A DNA stretch of 64,000 nucleotides from Rhodobacter sp. SY28-1 (lineage in GTDB: Bacteria; Pseudomonadota; Alphaproteobacteria; Rhodobacterales; Rhodobacteraceae). A model generated the notes under the pieces. That model was not told the origin of the DNA. It worked only from the letters and a program-made list of their open reading frames with translations, and ran no database searches. The stretch is from assembly GCF_005222785.1 (NCBI RefSeq), contig NZ_STGH01000004.1, positions 1 through 64,000 on the forward strand, written 5' to 3'. Positions 31,862 to 38,122 of this stretch are shown here, in pieces. The position numbers and the translations under genes are program-made. Within the stretch, counting starts at the first letter, position 1. Every line of letters begins with the position of its first letter.

Positions 31862-33102
31862 TGGACGGCGATATCCGCGTGAACACCTATGACGACGGCT
31901 CGAAGGATTTCGAGACCGGCGAACAGCGCATTCGCAACTTCAACATCAACTTTGGCCCGCAGCACCCGGCAGCGCATGGTGTGCTGCGGCTGGTGCTGGA
32001 GCTGGACGGCGAGATCGTCGAACGCTGCGACCCGCATATCGGCCTGCTGCACCGCGGGACCGAGAAGCTGATGGAGAGCAGGACCTACCTGCAGAACCTG
32101 CCGTATTTCGACCGCCTCGACTATGTGGCGCCGATGAACCAGGAACATGCCTGGTGTCTGGCGATTGAAAAGCTGACCGGGACGGTCGTGCCGCGTCGCG
32201 CCAGCCTGATCCGGGTTCTGTTCAGCGAAATCGGGCGGGTGCTGAACCACCTTCTGAACGTGACCACGCAAGCCATGGACGTGGGGGCGCTGACGCCTCC
32301 GCTCTGGGGCTTCGAGGAACGCGAAAAGCTGATGGTCTTCTATGAGCGGGCCTGCGGGGCGCGGCTTCACGCGGCCTATTTCCGGCCCGGTGGCGTGCAC
32401 CAGGACCTGACGCCGCAGCTTCTGGACGACATCGACGCCTGGGCCGAGGCCTTCCCCAAGGTGCTGGACGATATCGACGGGCTTCTGACCGAGAACCGCA
32501 TCTTCAAGCAGCGCAATGCCGATATCGGGATTGTCACCGAAAAGGACATCCTGGAATGGGGCTATTCCGGCGTGATGGTCCGTGGCTCGGGCCTTGCCTG
32601 GGACCTGCGGCGCAGCCAGCCCTACGAATGCTACGACGAGTTCGACTTCAAGATTCCGGTCGGCAAGAACGGCGACTGCTATGACCGCTATCTTTGCCGC
32701 ATGGCCGAGATGCGCGAGTCGACCAGCATCATCCGGCAGGCGGTGGCCAAGCTGAAGGCCCCCGACGGTCAGGGCGACATCCTGGCGCGCGGCAAGATCA
32801 CGCCGCCGAAGCGGGCGGAGATGAAGACCTCGATGGAGGCCTTGATCCACCACTTCAAACTGTACACCGAAGGCTTCCACGTCCCGGCGGGCGAGGTTTA
32901 TGCGGCCGTCGAGGCGCCGAAGGGCGAATTCGGGGTCTATCTGGTGGCGGACGGCACCAACAAACCCTACCGCGCCAAGATCCGCGCCCCGGGCTATCTG
33001 CACCTGCAGTCGATGGACTGGATCTGCAAGGGCCACCAGCTGGCCGACGTCAGCGCCATCATCGGGACCATGGACGTGGTCTTCGGGGAGATCGACCGGT
33101 GA
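31858..33102 (+). CDS. nuoD: NADH-quinone oxidoreductase subunit D
   Basis: This 414-aa peripheral subunit (49-kDa type) forms the quinone cavity with NuoB. The quinone-site histidine is in [14 protein letters not shown]. Other landmarks are [28 protein letters not shown] and the C-terminal [12 protein letters not shown]. Two adjacent in-frame ATGs (31858 and 31861) could serve as start. The stop shares bases with the GTG start of an AT-rich gene that separates nuoD from nuoE in this genome. Confidence 0.96.
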
Positions 33103-33593
33103 ATGAAAAGCCAATTGATAGAGCTGCAAACAGCGCGAAGAGTGCCACGGCGATTGTGGCGCTTGTTTCGGTTATCGCCGGAGCTGTTGGTGGATTCTTG
33201 TCTGCATTTCTATTGGTAAACCAACAGTTGGGTATTTGGGACCAGATCAAGAACTCTCATGTTGCTCTTGACCCTGTGTCTAAGGGAACCGTCTACAATC
33301 ACAGCAAGCTAGGCAAAGAAGACATCGCGGCGATACGCGCGTCTTTAGACCTACCAAACTTTGAAGAATTCGCGCTTAAATCTGATCTTTGGAATAATGA
33401 GCAACTCAGCGAAGAATTGGTTTCTCTTGGGTTTGTCAGGTTCGGTGACCCACTTAGCATTCGAGATAATGCACAGCCGCCAGTTGTCTTGATGAGGCAC
33501 GAAACAAATTTTGTGAGCCCGTACAATGAAAAGGACGTCAGTTTGAACGCAACTAGAACATACGTCTGGACGCTCAGGAAAGAAGATAAGTGA
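33099..33593 (+). CDS. AT-rich single-span membrane protein inserted between nuoD and nuoE
   Basis: This 164-aa protein is unlike its surroundings. The gene is far less GC-rich than its neighbours: 28 of 60 bases in 33241-33300 and 23 of 60 in 33361-33420 are G or C by my count. It also uses AT-rich codons freely. It has one N-terminal membrane helix (about residues 17-43, [20 protein letters not shown]) and then a soluble domain that I do not recognise. The GTG start overlaps the nuoD stop and has GGGGAG eight bases ahead; its stop overlaps the nuoE start (TGATG). So it is foreign-looking yet translationally fitted into the operon. A role in complex I is possible but unsupported. Confidence 0.72.
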
Positions 33594-34771
33594 TGCTGCG
33601 TCGTCTTCACAAGGACCAACCCGCCTCTTTCGCCTTCACTCCGGCGAACGAAGCCTGGGCGAAGGGCCAGATTTCCAAGTATCCGGCCGGACGTCAGGCA
33701 TCGGCGATCATCCCGCTTCTGTGGCGCGCGCAAGAGCAGGAGGGGTGGCTGTCCCGTCCCGCCATCGAGCACGTCGCGGATATGCTGGGGATGGCCTATA
33801 TCCGGGCGCTGGAAGTGGCGACCTTCTACTTCATGTTCCAGCTTCAGCCGGTGGGTTCCGTGGCCCATGTCCAGATCTGCGGCACGACCTCCTGCATGAT
33901 CTGCGGGGCCGAGGATCTGGTGGCGGTGGCCAAGGAACTGATCGCACCGACGCCCCATACCCTTTCCGCGGACGGCAAGTTCAGCTGGGAAGAAGTCGAG
34001 TGCATGGGGGCCTGCGCCAACGCGCCCATGGCCCAGATCGGCAAGGATTACTACGAGGACCTGACCGGGGAAAAACTGCGTGAGCTGATCGGGCGGTTCT
34101 CCAAGGGCGAGGTCCCGGTGCCCGGCCCCCAGAACGGGCGATATGCGGCGGAACCGGCCGGCGGGCTGACCAGTCTCAAGGAATTCGTCTCGGGCCGGAA
34201 GCAGTACAACGCCAGCGCACAGGCGGCGGTGGACCTGAAGGATACCGTCAAGCGGATCGACGGGACCGAAGTGCCGCTGACGACGCCCTGGCTGGGTGTG
34301 GCCGCCCCGGTGAAACCGGCGAAGGCCAAGGCGGTGGAGCCGAAGCCCTCCGCCGGTGTTCCGGCGGACGCGACCGGTGCAACGGTGCAAGAGGCAAAGG
34401 CGACCTCCAAAGGCAAGCCGCAGTCCGACGGCAACGCGCCGAACGCGACTCCGCTGGCTACGCCCAAGGCGAAGGCTTCCGGTCAGGCGGGGGGCGCGAA
34501 GCCCGCAGGCCTTTCGGCACCCAAGGGGGGCAAGGCTGATGACCTGAAGCTGATCCTCGGGATCGGGCCCAAGCTTGAGGTGCTGTGCCACAAACTTGGC
34601 TTCTTCCACTTTGACCAGATCGCCGCATGGACCGAGGCGGAGATCGCCTGGGTCGACGAGAATCTGGAAGGCTTCAAGGGTCGGGTGACCCGCGACAAGT
34701 GGGTGGTTCAGGCAAAGGTCCTGGCGGCGGGTGGTTCGGTCGCGGACGCCGAAGCGGCGGCGCGGGGCTAG
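33593..34771 (+). CDS. nuoE: NADH-quinone oxidoreductase subunit E with long C-terminal extension
   Basis: This 392-aa protein carries the [2Fe-2S] cluster N1a. Its ligands are C96 and C101 ([10 protein letters not shown]) and C137 and C141 (CMGACANAP). The normal 24-kDa subunit would end near residue 200-240. Here a Pro/Ala/Lys-rich linker (about 240-305) leads to a helix-hairpin-helix-like domain (about 307-380; [44 protein letters not shown]). The same domain ends each of the next two proteins. GTG 33590 precedes the ATG in frame; ATG 33593 is chosen because it overlaps the preceding stop. Confidence 0.94.
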
Positions 34772-34835
34772 GTTTGGTAAGCGGTGGGACCCGGTCGGTC
34801 CGGCAGGGCCGGACGGACGAAGGGAGTAGGGCTGG

Positions 34836-35915
34836 ATGAGCGACGAGATCAATGACACGACGATCGGCCGGGGTGGCTGGGCGCTGGTGCTGGCGTCGGC
34901 CGTCCTGTCGTTCGCGGTCCTGCACTTTCTCCTGAGCTACCTGCTGTTCCCGTCCGTGCTTTTCTCGGCAGCCATCGCGCTGATCGTCTATCTGATCCTG
35001 TACCGGCTGGCCGTCGCGGTGAACCGCCATGACGATGCCGAGTCAGAGCGGCAGGTGCGCAAGATCGTTCCGGCCTCGGCGGTGACCGATGGCACCATCC
35101 GCGTGCGCGGCGTCGAGGGGGCGCAGGGTTCGACCATCGTGGCCGTGCCGGTTCGGCCCGATCCGGCGGCGCAGGCATCGCAGCGGCCCGCATCCGTTGT
35201 CACGCCGCTGTCCCGCGTCGAGCCTGCCCCGCTGATCCCGCCGCAGCCTGTGGTGGCCGCACCCGCCGCGCCGGAACCGCCCGCGCCGCCCCCGGCTGCA
35301 AAGGCGCCCATCGACATCTTCGCCGACGAGACCGACGTCTGGGCCCGGCCCGCCCCGACCGCGACGCCGGCGCCTGCGGTCGCCCCTGCGCCGACGGACA
35401 AGCCGAAAGCCGCCTTCAAGTCGAAGGCCGAGCTTCAGGCCGAAGCGGCTGCTGCCAAGTCCGAGGCGAAGGCCGAACCGAAGGTCAAGCCGGCGGCCAA
35501 GGCCAAGGCCGAGCCCAAGGCGAAAGCCGCAGCGAAACCCAAGGCCGAGCCGAAACCCAAGGCCGAACCCAAGGCGAAGGCTGCCGCGAAGCCGAAGGCC
35601 GCGCCCAAGCCGAAGGCGGAAAAGGCTGTGCCTGCCGGACTTCAGCGCCTGTCGGCCCCGCGCGATGGGGTGGCGGACGACCTGAAGGAGATCGAAGGCA
35701 TCGGCCCGGCCATCGAAAAGCTGGTCAACGGGTTGGGCTTCTATCACTTCGACCAGATCGCCGCCTGGACCGACGAGGATGTCGCGCTGGTCGATGCCGA
35801 GCTGCGGACCTTCAAGGGCCGGATCGCGCGCGACAAATGGGTGGCGCAGGCCAGGATCATCGTGACCGAGGGGCTGATGGCGTTCCGCGAACGCGCCAAG
35901 ACGAACGACTATTGA
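34836..35915 (+). CDS. Membrane-anchored protein with Lys/Ala/Pro repeats and HhH-like C-terminal domain
   Basis: This 359-aa protein begins with two membrane spans (about residues 14-58, WALVLASAVLSFAVLHFLL and LFSAAIALIVYLILYRLAV). A Pro/Ala-rich region follows, then a strongly basic segment of PKA/EPKAKAA repeats (about 188-268). It ends with the helix-hairpin-helix-like domain (272-340; VADDLKEIEGIGPAIEKLVN) and the tail FRERAKTNDY. The end domain is a close paralogue of the one in NuoE and in the next protein. Eukaryotic-like basic repeats plus an HhH domain could bind nucleic acid, or could mediate assembly between the three proteins. No function is known to me. Confidence 0.8.
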   Translation: MSDEINDTTIGRGGWALVLASAVLSFAVLHFLLSYLLFPSVLFSAAIALIVYLILYRLAVAVNRHDDAESERQVRKIVPASAVTDGTIRVRGVEGAQGSTIVAVPVRPDPAAQASQRPASVVTPLSRVEPAPLIPPQPVVAAPAAPEPPAPPPAAKAPIDIFADETDVWARPAPTATPAPAVAPAPTDKPKAAFKSKAELQAEAAAAKSEAKAEPKVKPAAKAKAEPKAKAAAKPKAEPKPKAEPKAKAAAKPKAAPKPKAEKAVPAGLQRLSAPRDGVADDLKEIEGIGPAIEKLVNGLGFYHFDQIAAWTDEDVALVDAELRTFKGRIARDKWVAQARIIVTEGLMAFRERAKTNDY

Positions 35916-35922
35916 GAGACGC

Positions 35923-35947
35923 GTGATGCAGACTTGCCCTGCATCAC
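35923..35947 (+). promoter_or_regulatory. Intercistronic hairpin downstream of the 359-aa ORF
   Basis: GTGATGCAG and CTGCATCAC form a perfect 9-bp stem around a 7-nt loop, starting eight bases after the stop codon. There is no U-run, so it is more likely a processing or stabilising structure than a terminator within this long operon. Confidence 0.5.
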
Positions 35948-36001
35948 CAGACCTGCAACGCGCCTGAGGCAAGCGGGCCGCTACGACGGGAGAGACAGGG
36001 A

Positions 36002-36583
36002 ATGCGTACTGCAGAGAACGTGAATGCCCCTTGGTTGGGCGGCTGGCTGATCGGCGCGGCGGCGGGGCTGGTGGCCTTCGGCGCGCTGGTCGCGGTGGGC
36101 AAGTTCGACCTCTTTCCCGCGGCGGCCATCGGCTCGGTCGTGGCGCTGGTCGTGGGGCTGATCCTTGGCATGCCCTGGGGTGCGGGGGCGCGTCCCGCTG
36201 CTGCTGCGATGCCCGCGCCGGTGCGCGCAGCAGAAGCCGCGCCCGTGGTGACGCCTGCCGCCTTCGTGTCTGCCCCGGCTGCCCCCGTGGCTGCCAGCGC
36301 GGATGGGCCGGAACGCCTGTCCGCCCCGCGTGGCGGCAAGGCGGATGATCTGAAGGAAATCGAAGGCATCGGCCCGGCAATGGAGAAGCTGGTGAACGAA
36401 ATGGGCTTCTACCACTTCGCCCAGATCGCCAACTGGTCGGACGCCGACGTGGCCTGGGTCGACGCGAACATGAAGAATTTCAAGGGCCGCATCACCCGCG
36501 ACCGCTGGGTGGCGCAGGCGAAGATCATCGTTGCAGAAGGCCTTGAGGCATTCCGCGAACGCGCCAAGACAAACAACTACTGA
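36002..36583 (+). CDS. Membrane-anchored protein with HhH-like C-terminal domain
   Basis: This 193-aa protein is a shorter relative of the preceding one. It has two N-terminal membrane spans (about 14-60, WLIGAAAGLVAFGALVAV and AAIGSVVALVVGLILGM), an Ala/Pro-rich linker, and the domain starting [20 protein letters not shown] at residue 106. It ends FRERAKTNNY, nearly identical to the previous protein's FRERAKTNDY. It lacks the long basic repeat region. The GIGP turn and flanking helices fit a helix-hairpin-helix fold. Its place between nuoE and nuoF suggests a link to the NADH-oxidising module, but that is inference. Confidence 0.8.
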   Translation: MRTAENVNAPWLGGWLIGAAAGLVAFGALVAVGKFDLFPAAAIGSVVALVVGLILGMPWGAGARPAAAAMPAPVRAAEAAPVVTPAAFVSAPAAPVAASADGPERLSAPRGGKADDLKEIEGIGPAMEKLVNEMGFYHFAQIANWSDADVAWVDANMKNFKGRITRDRWVAQAKIIVAEGLEAFRERAKTNNY

Positions 36584-36589
36584 CATCCG

Positions 36590-36817
36590 ATGACCGCGCA
36601 CCGCCCCGATCCCGCCGACCTTCACCGCGCCCGCCAGGCGCGGCTGGTCGGCATCGTGCTGGCGGTGACGATCATCCTGTGGATGGGGGCCCAGCTTGTG
36701 GGCGGACAATTGGGGTTGGAGGCGCGCTATGCGTTCCTCTTCGACCTTGCAGCCATCGCGGCCTTCGTCTGGGCCCTGGTGGTGACGTATCAGATCTGGC
36801 GCGGACGCCGGGGTTAG
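36590..36817 (+). CDS. DUF5337-type small membrane protein
   Basis: This 75-aa protein has a basic N-terminus (ADLHRARQARLVG) and two membrane spans (IVLAVTIILWMGAQLVGG and FDLAAIAAFVWALVVTY), ending in a basic tail. It matches my recollection of DUF5337, a family found inside nuo operons of Rhodobacteraceae. It follows the HhH-like membrane protein after six bases and precedes nuoF by nine. Function is unknown; an assembly or accessory role for complex I is a guess from location. Confidence 0.7.
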   Translation: MTAHRPDPADLHRARQARLVGIVLAVTIILWMGAQLVGGQLGLEARYAFLFDLAAIAAFVWALVVTYQIWRGRRG

Positions 36818-36826
36818 GAAGACAAG

Positions 36827-38122
36827 ATGCTCAAGGATCAGGACCGCATTTTCACCAACCTCTACGGGATGCATGACCGCAGCCTGAAGGGTGCGATGAA
36901 GCGCGGGCATTGGAACGGCACCGCCGACATCATCAAGCGCGGGCGCGACACGATCATCGAGCAGGTCAAGGCCTCGGGATTGCGCGGTCGGGGTGGCGCG
37001 GGCTTTCCGACGGGTCTGAAGTGGTCGTTCATGCCGAAGCAGTCCGATGGGCGGCCGTCCTATCTGGTGGTGAACGCCGACGAATCCGAACCCGGGACCT
37101 GCAAGGACCGGGAAATCATGCGCCACGATCCGCACACGCTGATCGAGGGCTGCCTGATCGCGTCGTTCGCGATGAACGCCAACACCTGCTACATCTACAT
37201 CCGCGGCGAATACATTCGTGAGCGCGAGGCGCTGCAGGCCGCGATTGACGAATGCTATGACGCGGGTCTGCTGGGCAAGAACGCCGCGAAGTCCGGCTGG
37301 GACTTCGACCTGTATCTGCATCACGGTGCCGGGGCCTATATCTGCGGCGAAGAGACGGCCCTGCTGGAGAGCCTTGAAGGCAAGAAGGGCATGCCCCGGA
37401 TGAAACCGCCGTTCCCGGCGGGCTCGGGCCTGTATGGTTGCCCGACCACGGTGAACAACGTGGAGTCGATTGCGGTTGTACCGACGATCCTGCGCCGGGG
37501 GTCCGACTGGTTCGCGTCCTTTGGTCGCCCGAACAACACCGGGACCAAGCTCTTCGGCATCTCGGGCCATGTCATGCAGCCCTGCGTCGTCGAAGAAGCG
37601 ATGTCGATCCCGCTGAAGGAACTGCTGGACCGCCATTGTGGCGGCGTGCGGGGCGGGTGGAAGAACCTGAAGGCAGTCATTCCGGGCGGGTCTTCGGTGC
37701 CGCTGCTGACCCAGGCGCAATGCGACGACGCGATCATGGATTTCGACTGGCTGCGCGAGCAGCGCTCGGGCCTTGGCACCGCGGCGGTCATCGTGATGGA
37801 CCAGTCGACCGACGTCATCAAGGCGATCTGGCGGCTGTCGAAGTTCTACAAGCACGAGTCCTGCGGCCAGTGCACCCCCTGCCGCGAAGGCACGGGCTGG
37901 ATGATGCGCGTGATGGACCGTCTGGTCCGCGGCGAGGCAGAGGTCGAGGAGATCGACATGCTTCTGTCGGTCACCAAGCAGGTCGAGGGTCATACCATTT
38001 GCGCTTTGGGTGACGCGGCCGCCTGGCCGATCCAGGGCCTGATCCGCGCCTTCCGGGACGAGATCGAGGACCGGATCAAGGCCAAGAAAACCGGCCGCAT
38101 CTCGGCGGTCGCGGCGGAGTGA
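36827..38122 (+). CDS. nuoF: NADH-quinone oxidoreductase subunit F
   Basis: This 431-aa subunit oxidises NADH. It holds FMN and cluster N3. The nucleotide-binding loop is [19 protein letters not shown], followed by the FMN-site region [17 protein letters not shown]. The [4Fe-4S] ligands are in [16 protein letters not shown] plus a later Cys in [14 protein letters not shown]. It is separated from nuoE by three other genes. The stop overlaps the start of the next small gene. Confidence 0.97.

Follow-up and report, generated by a model that had tools for sequence, protein, structure and literature searches.

Two membrane proteins encoded between nuoE and nuoF of Rhodobacter sp. SY28-1 share a C-terminal domain with NuoE, and one is a candidate protein-O-type subunit of the photosynthetic RC-LH1 complex

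A window of 64,000 nucleotides from Rhodobacter sp. SY28-1 (contig NZ_STGH01000004.1) was analysed, in which the nuo operon runs in the order nuoE, O1, O2, a DUF5337 gene and nuoF, all on the + strand as judged from open reading frames and a Pfam scan. O1 and O2 encode membrane proteins that end in the same helical domain of about 80 residues as NuoE. We consider it probable, at roughly 0.6, that O2 serves as an accessory subunit of the protein-O type in the complex formed by the photosynthetic reaction centre (RC) and light-harvesting complex 1 (LH1), with O1 as its paralogue and the common domain as an interchangeable docking module that does not bind DNA. The proposed assignment of O2 to RC-LH1 draws on homology and architecture, on the distribution of the genes and on a single gene in a puf cluster, and the putative docking role of the domain on its conservation and exchange. 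The genome of the window carries pufL and pufM (two Photo_RC matches), and its closest named relatives are Tabrizicola.

Protein-O of Dinoroseobacter shibae (ABV93056.1; PDB 8yy9, 8yz2 and 9jpb) is an RC-LH1 subunit of known structure that is encoded between nuoE and nuoF. In the available text of its description, the hairpin is placed between RC-L and the 11th/12th LH1 alpha subunits, the C-terminal domain is unseen in the structure and is likened to the C-terminus of NuoE and of other proteins of obscure function, and the function of the protein and the origin of its gene in a respiratory operon are left open (PMC12079452). The core of the observation of a NuoE-like domain is already in print there for another species, and a literature search for protein-O with RC-LH1 or nuoE returned this paper alone. 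O1 and O2 share with protein-O the transmembrane hairpin, the linker, the C-terminal domain and the position of the gene between nuoE and nuoF, and O2 combines a homologous hairpin and, after a flexible linker, a homologous domain with the presence of a reaction centre in the genome. They differ in having no equivalents of its Cys10 and Cys59, a pair that we do not take as defining. The window also differs in holding two protein-O-like genes and in that the O2-type hairpin forms a distant subgroup, and while binding to RC-LH1 is known for protein-O, for O2 it is a prediction from that kinship. A further relative, chain a of 9wqv, is known here from a sequence match, the entry title (LH1-RC, Rhodovulum sulfidophilum) and a fold match alone; it has the same domain (E 2e-28) with a weak hairpin match, and was deposited as 'NADH:ubiquinone oxidoreductase 41 kd complex i subunit'. 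The literature search returned no paper on 9wqv.

NuoE (33590..34771, +; 393 aa) consists of a thioredoxin-like [2Fe-2S] core, a linker of about 70 residues and the C-terminal domain, and is a full member of NCBIfam PRK12373 (584 bits, cut-off 514) that also matches Pfam PF01257, whereas O1 and O2 resemble only the C-terminal part of that family (112 and 123 bits). The NuoE copy of the domain (34511..34768, +; residues 308-393) was modelled by AlphaFold2 (AF2) with a predicted local distance difference test score (pLDDT) of 93.7. It is 56% and 58% identical to the copies of O1 (35649..35912, +; residues 272-359) and O2 (36317..36580, +; residues 106-193), and 42 of 88 alignment columns are invariant, which is far beyond chance. 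A model built from the three copies, run over the whole genome with a cut-off of E ≤ 1, found the same three sites only and gave each of them E ≤ 1e-48, values which, since the model contains its own hits, show uniqueness and not significance; a model of 89 rows likewise returned only these three sites at E ≤ 0.01. The initial annotation had proposed that the three proteins share this domain, and the alignment and the genome-wide profile search confirm it. The motifs GFxHFxQIAxW and FKGR-x2-RDxW and the terminus FRERAKTNxY (FRERAKTNDY in O1, FRERAKTNNY in O2) are as given there, while the start in NuoE moves from residue 307 to 308 and the spacing ADDLK-x4-GIGP is corrected to ADDLK-x3-GIGP.

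The domain appears to have a fold of the helix-hairpin-helix (HhH) type, and the RadA N-terminal and NusA AR2 HhH domains were counted among the closest known folds, with no match at E ≤ 0.001 in the Foldseek searches. Its residues L12, G17, G30, Q36, A38, G57 and W64 were invariant across 89 sequences, and its dN/dS was 0.08-0.17 in seven of eight comparisons (0.09-0.14 in the three for O2), the remaining value of 0.55 belonging to the O1 of locus L011, whose tail is NuoE-like. The dN of the linkers was 0.23-0.49, against 0.04-0.29 for the domain. A copying of the domain three times within the operon had been suggested earlier; three copies there are, but in a tree of 150 rows the NuoE domain of the window clustered with its NuoE counterparts from eight close relatives, apart from the branch that held the O1 and O2 copies, and a recent local triplication was therefore rejected, in a tree that has only 75 columns, many open forks and a bootstrap that has not settled.

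Exchange between the genes became visible in the same comparisons. In 16 named NuoE proteins the domain fell into a group of 31 rows with domains of the O1 and O2 types (support 100/89), and each of these proteins terminates as O1 and O2 do, in RA(K/R)-x3-Y; their cores, in contrast, were scattered within a supported branch of 29 (98) together with nine Tabrizicola-type and four ordinary ones. The NuoE domain at locus L056 has 99% identity to its O counterpart. Replacement of domains between different genes, nuoE on the one side and the O genes on the other, thus seems to have occurred, which is new here, and since domains and tails have moved in this way the domains look interchangeable. An earlier suggestion of a common binding partner for the three copies stands in part: a shared module with a single kind of partner is plausible on the strength of this exchange, whereas nucleic acid, one of the partners put forward, is disfavoured, and protein-O of RC-LH1 had been missed.

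O2 (36002..36583, +; 193 aa) is a protein-O-like membrane protein by its AF2 model, by Foldseek and by the match of its domain to 8yy9_O (E 3.6e-29). The model predicts a two-helix transmembrane hairpin (36029..36169, +; helices 10-31 and 37-56), a low-confidence linker (36170..36316, +; residues 57-105) that is probably disordered (pLDDT block means of 53-63 for residues 61-100), and a folded domain from residue 106 (pLDDT 84.7). Against the PDB it matched 8yy9_O with probability 1.00, TMt 0.84, a root-mean-square deviation (rmsd) of 1.5 and 26% identity over 50 columns, and 9wqv_a with probability 0.80. O1 (34836..35915, +; 359 aa) has a transmembrane hairpin (34854..35033, +; about residues 7-66), a long linker rich in Ala, Lys and Pro, and the domain. 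Its hairpin was placed by profile comparison (hhalign), with probabilities of 95.8 to O2-type and 96.2 to protein-O-type hairpins. When hairpins were sorted into O1, O2, protein-O-type, hairpin-only and phasin-like classes, an assignment made initially by eye, the profiles of the O1, O2, protein-O and short hairpin-only types matched one another with hhalign probabilities of 95-98, except for the O1 type against the hairpin-only type (64.5), while 43 DUF5337-like hairpins from the same loci, used as control, stayed below 1. A hairpin model of 35 rows (A6) that excluded protein-O and 9wqv still scored the protein-O hairpin at 27.9 bits and that of 9wqv at 14.2 bits. The label of FEN-1-like 5' nuclease, given by some sources, was rejected, as the Pfam scan of O1 and O2 listed no nuclease family at E ≤ 1.

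The distribution of the hairpins was surveyed in 256 Rhodobacteraceae genomes of 255 genera (one per genus, two for the genus of the window), a genome being counted as RC-negative if it had no PF00124 match at E ≤ 0.001; 99 genomes were RC-positive. The broad hairpin model (E ≤ 0.001) hit 168 of the 256, comprising 76 of the 99 RC-positive and 92 of the 157 RC-negative genomes (odds ratio, OR, 2.3; p 0.003), and the hairpin family is therefore not dedicated to photosynthesis. The O2-type hairpin model hit 46 genomes, and 38 of these were RC-positive compared with 61 of the 210 non-hits (OR 11.6, p 2.8e-11); with three hairpin-only frames removed there remained 37 RC-positive and 6 RC-negative hits, and 33 and 6 among the remote hits alone. 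Kinship was controlled roughly, genus sampling and NuoE similarity standing in for a species tree: among the 46 genomes nearest by NuoE core 20 were RC-positive (p 0.5), and the OR stratified by NuoE rank, with the 150 best NuoE matches ranked and the remaining 106 genomes pooled as one stratum, was 11.2. The four strongest O2-type hits, the window included, were all RC-positive, as were the six tested genomes with the O2 type proper (the window, L008, L010, L011, L020 and L037). The O1 type was found in five RC-positive and two RC-negative genomes (L009 and L012); the latter are metagenome-assembled, as are many of the named genomes, in which missing pufLM may be a gap. That the hairpin family is common in genomes without a reaction centre, while O2-like hairpins track the reaction centre and NuoE similarity does not, is a new observation.

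Also new is the arrangement in one phototroph, genome G237, where the only gene of this kind detected adjoins pufLM-dxs and none is found at nuo. Its only hairpin match, a protein of 205 aa with the domain, is encoded after dxs, which itself follows two Photo_RC genes (pufLM). Three NifH/nitrogenase-type genes, which from their position we take to be bchXYZ, lie upstream of pufLM-dxs, and at the nuo locus a domain-bearing nuoE is followed by a frame that by eye looks DUF5337-like and then by nuoF, no hairpin-plus-domain gene intervening. From the survey comes a testable split: hairpins of this family are widespread and linked to nuo, a portion of them follows the reaction centre, and in one genome the gene stands beside pufLM-dxs.

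On this reading the two helices of O2 would span the membrane where protein-O is placed in D. shibae, flanked by the RC L subunit and the LH1 ring, and may there assist RC-LH1 assembly or the route of quinones, with its domain predicted to hang in the cytoplasm on the flexible linker. Since the O1 type occurs in two relatives without detected RC genes, O1 may serve another membrane complex, for which complex I is the obvious candidate. The domain of NuoE, O1 and O2 would be a small interchangeable docking module.

Several points weigh against this assignment of O2 and O1. Foldseek gave the O2 model poor E-values (0.67 for 8yy9_O), hairpins of two helices are commonplace (5mlz gave an rmsd of 1.2 over 49 columns), a narrow O2-type hairpin model scored protein-O at -2.1 bits, and the O1 and O2 hairpins contain no Cys, so that the Cys pair of protein-O is absent. 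The RC-negative carriers of family hairpins mean that RC binding is not their sole role, and, conversely, 23 of the 99 RC-positive genomes gave no family hairpin at E ≤ 0.001 and five named Pseudotabrizicola genomes are RC-positive with no O gene downstream of nuoE. Of the 46 O2-like hits eight were RC-negative, two of these being hairpin-only frames. The O2-type model was built on rows from RC-positive genomes (the genome of one row being unsearched), kinship was handled without a species tree, and the split between O1 and O2 rests on few genomes. As to the domain, its co-variation between NuoE and O proteins was not specific, the partial correlation over 47 genomes being 0.41 from domain to domain and 0.38 from NuoE domain to O hairpin, and co-variation was rejected as evidence of contact. 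The identity of NuoE and O domains in 48 pairs was 0.694 within and 0.676 between genomes (0 of 5000 permutations as high), an excess which is confounded by relatedness and conversion and was likewise set aside as evidence of contact; the same permutation test on the O1 and O2 types gave nothing (3110 and 646 of 5000).

The location of O1 and O2 in the nuo operon, both between nuoE and nuoF, would also suit accessory subunits or assembly factors of complex I whose domains dock with that of NuoE or at the same site as it, the membership of protein-O in the RC-LH1 of D. shibae then being a secondary recruitment. In keeping with this, 28 of 30 O2-like loci examined (of the 46 genomes) have nuoE and/or nuoF within 3 kb, the hairpin family is frequent in RC-negative genomes, and NuoE carries the domain in 80 of 80 named loci, which were chosen as the best NuoE matches. 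We nevertheless regard this explanation as unlikely, as O2-like hairpins follow the reaction centre and not nearness of NuoE, and as the gene of G237 lies in the puf cluster and not at nuo. NuoE of Paracoccus, moreover, has no such domain in the solved complex I, the match of the window's NuoE to that chain (8qby_E, 239 aa) being confined to residues 2-237, and the accessory subunits named for Paracoccus in the available text of its description (NDUFS4, NDUFS6, NDUFA12 and a methyltransferase) do not include O1 or O2 (PMC11522691).

That a complex I subunit and apparent relatives of an RC-LH1 subunit have a domain in common suggests a possible connection between these two energy-converting complexes. 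In its strongest and quite doubtful form, the domain would be a docking tag that couples RC-LH1, through protein-O or O2, to complex I, through NuoE, in a light-driven quinone-linked supercomplex of phototrophic Rhodobacteraceae, with O1 linking complex I to a second membrane complex. Rhodobacter sphaeroides depends on active complex I to grow photoheterotrophically when no external electron acceptor is supplied, and complex I has been proposed to balance the quinone and NADH pools, as stated in the available text of PMC4859585. A physical or assembly link between RC-LH1 and complex I would therefore be of real interest.

The domain might, on the other hand, have no special partner and have spread as a solubility or spacer module, its similar and closely placed copies being kept alike by recombination. 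The exchange described above, the near-identity of the copies at L056, the lack of specific co-variation and the presence of the domain on unrelated carriers agree with this, and in genome G264 (L148) both the NuoE and the O-type domain resemble by eye the version found on ribosomal protein L21, which suggests exchange beyond the operon. A mere spacer is nonetheless improbable for a domain whose dN/dS is as low as that given above, with higher dN in the linkers, and which keeps seven residues invariant in 89 sequences.

It is very improbable that the domain is an HhH module for binding nucleic acid, by which complex I and the membrane proteins would be tied to DNA or RNA, for instance near the nucleoid or ribosomes. 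All five classes of the domain have a negative mean net charge (-0.6 to -2.6, with single sequences up to +5), Pfam HhH models remain below their cut-offs (for HHH_5, O2 15.1 of 27 bits, NuoE and O1 unlisted at E ≤ 1), NusA AR2 in 6ib8 was solved with a protein, SuhB, and no copy outside nuo was found in the genome of the window; but the HhH-type fold and the frequency of L21 among outside copies in other genomes may qualify this judgement.

With the 89-row model, 24 of 34 genomes had a copy outside nuo at E ≤ 0.01 (G021 only at 0.0013), 29 copies in all. The 20 examined by eye comprised 16 on ribosomal L21, two of these carriers being confirmed with NCBIfam, three on one-helix proteins with a charged stretch and one on a two-helix protein. 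Random scatter outside nuo, named at the outset as an argument against a common partner, was not what these copies showed, all 20 being on L21 or on four small membrane proteins. The L21 with a C-terminal extension (NCBIfam PRK12278) has a homologous domain on a different carrier, and the literature search found no paper on L21 with the domain. At L089, L091 and L093, also outside nuo, a domain near the NuoE/O type (E 7e-40 to 2e-41) is carried by membrane proteins that have one helix and a charged stretch, which may form a coiled coil. Among 143 alphaproteobacterial genomes the domain was detected at E ≤ 1e-6 in 16, three of them Rhodobacteraceae.

The named loci were obtained by examining the best 80 NuoE matches with a query NuoE that itself contained the domain, and the presence of the domain on all 80 is thus no estimate of its frequency. 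Downstream of nuoE, and before nuoF where this was on the contig, 23 loci had no further domain gene (L038 and L039 among them stop at NuoE), 49 had one and 8 had two. All of the 80 genomes except L024 and L063 were searched for RC genes, and 34 of these 78 were positive (22 of 49 plus 12 of 29; L061 on a 53-residue fragment). All eight genomes with two further domain genes were RC-positive. Taken alone, copy number was rejected as an indicator of phototrophy, since one or more further domain genes occurred in 27 of 34 RC-positive named genomes and in 29 of 44 RC-negative ones. The second gene was of the O2 type in L008, L010 and L011, and had a phasin-like start, by eye, in L042 (8481-9293), L050 (8067-8837), L080 (8115-8855), L083 (7306-8292) and L085 (8384-9364); the NCBIfam PhaH matches of the L042 and L050 proteins were below cut-off. 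In seven of the 23 loci lacking a further domain gene (L022, L025, L035, L036, L041, L045 and L055), the nuoE-nuoF gap encodes short proteins (about 80-90 aa) made up of a hairpin and a His-rich tail, which match the O2 hairpin and have no domain; two of the seven genomes are RC-positive. A hairpin-only frame of 76 aa was also seen in the RC-positive genome G118 (L136; E 1.7e-5, a weak match), with no nuoE or nuoF within the 3 kb examined.

In the window, a DUF5337 two-helix protein (36590..36817, +; Pfam PF17272, 105.5 bits) without the shared domain is encoded between O2 and nuoF, and nuoF (36827..38122, +; Pfam scan) closes the interval. Two inverted repeats were noticed by eye, GTGATGCAG/CTGCATCAC in the O1-O2 gap (35923-35947) and GTCCGGC/GCCGGAC in the nuoE-O1 gap (34798-34814); each is a possible RNA processing site, and neither was reported by a terminator scan of the window. 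Between nuoD and nuoE an extra open frame, at about 33100-33593 (the C-terminal part of the frame 32694-33593), encodes, by eye, one hydrophobic stretch.

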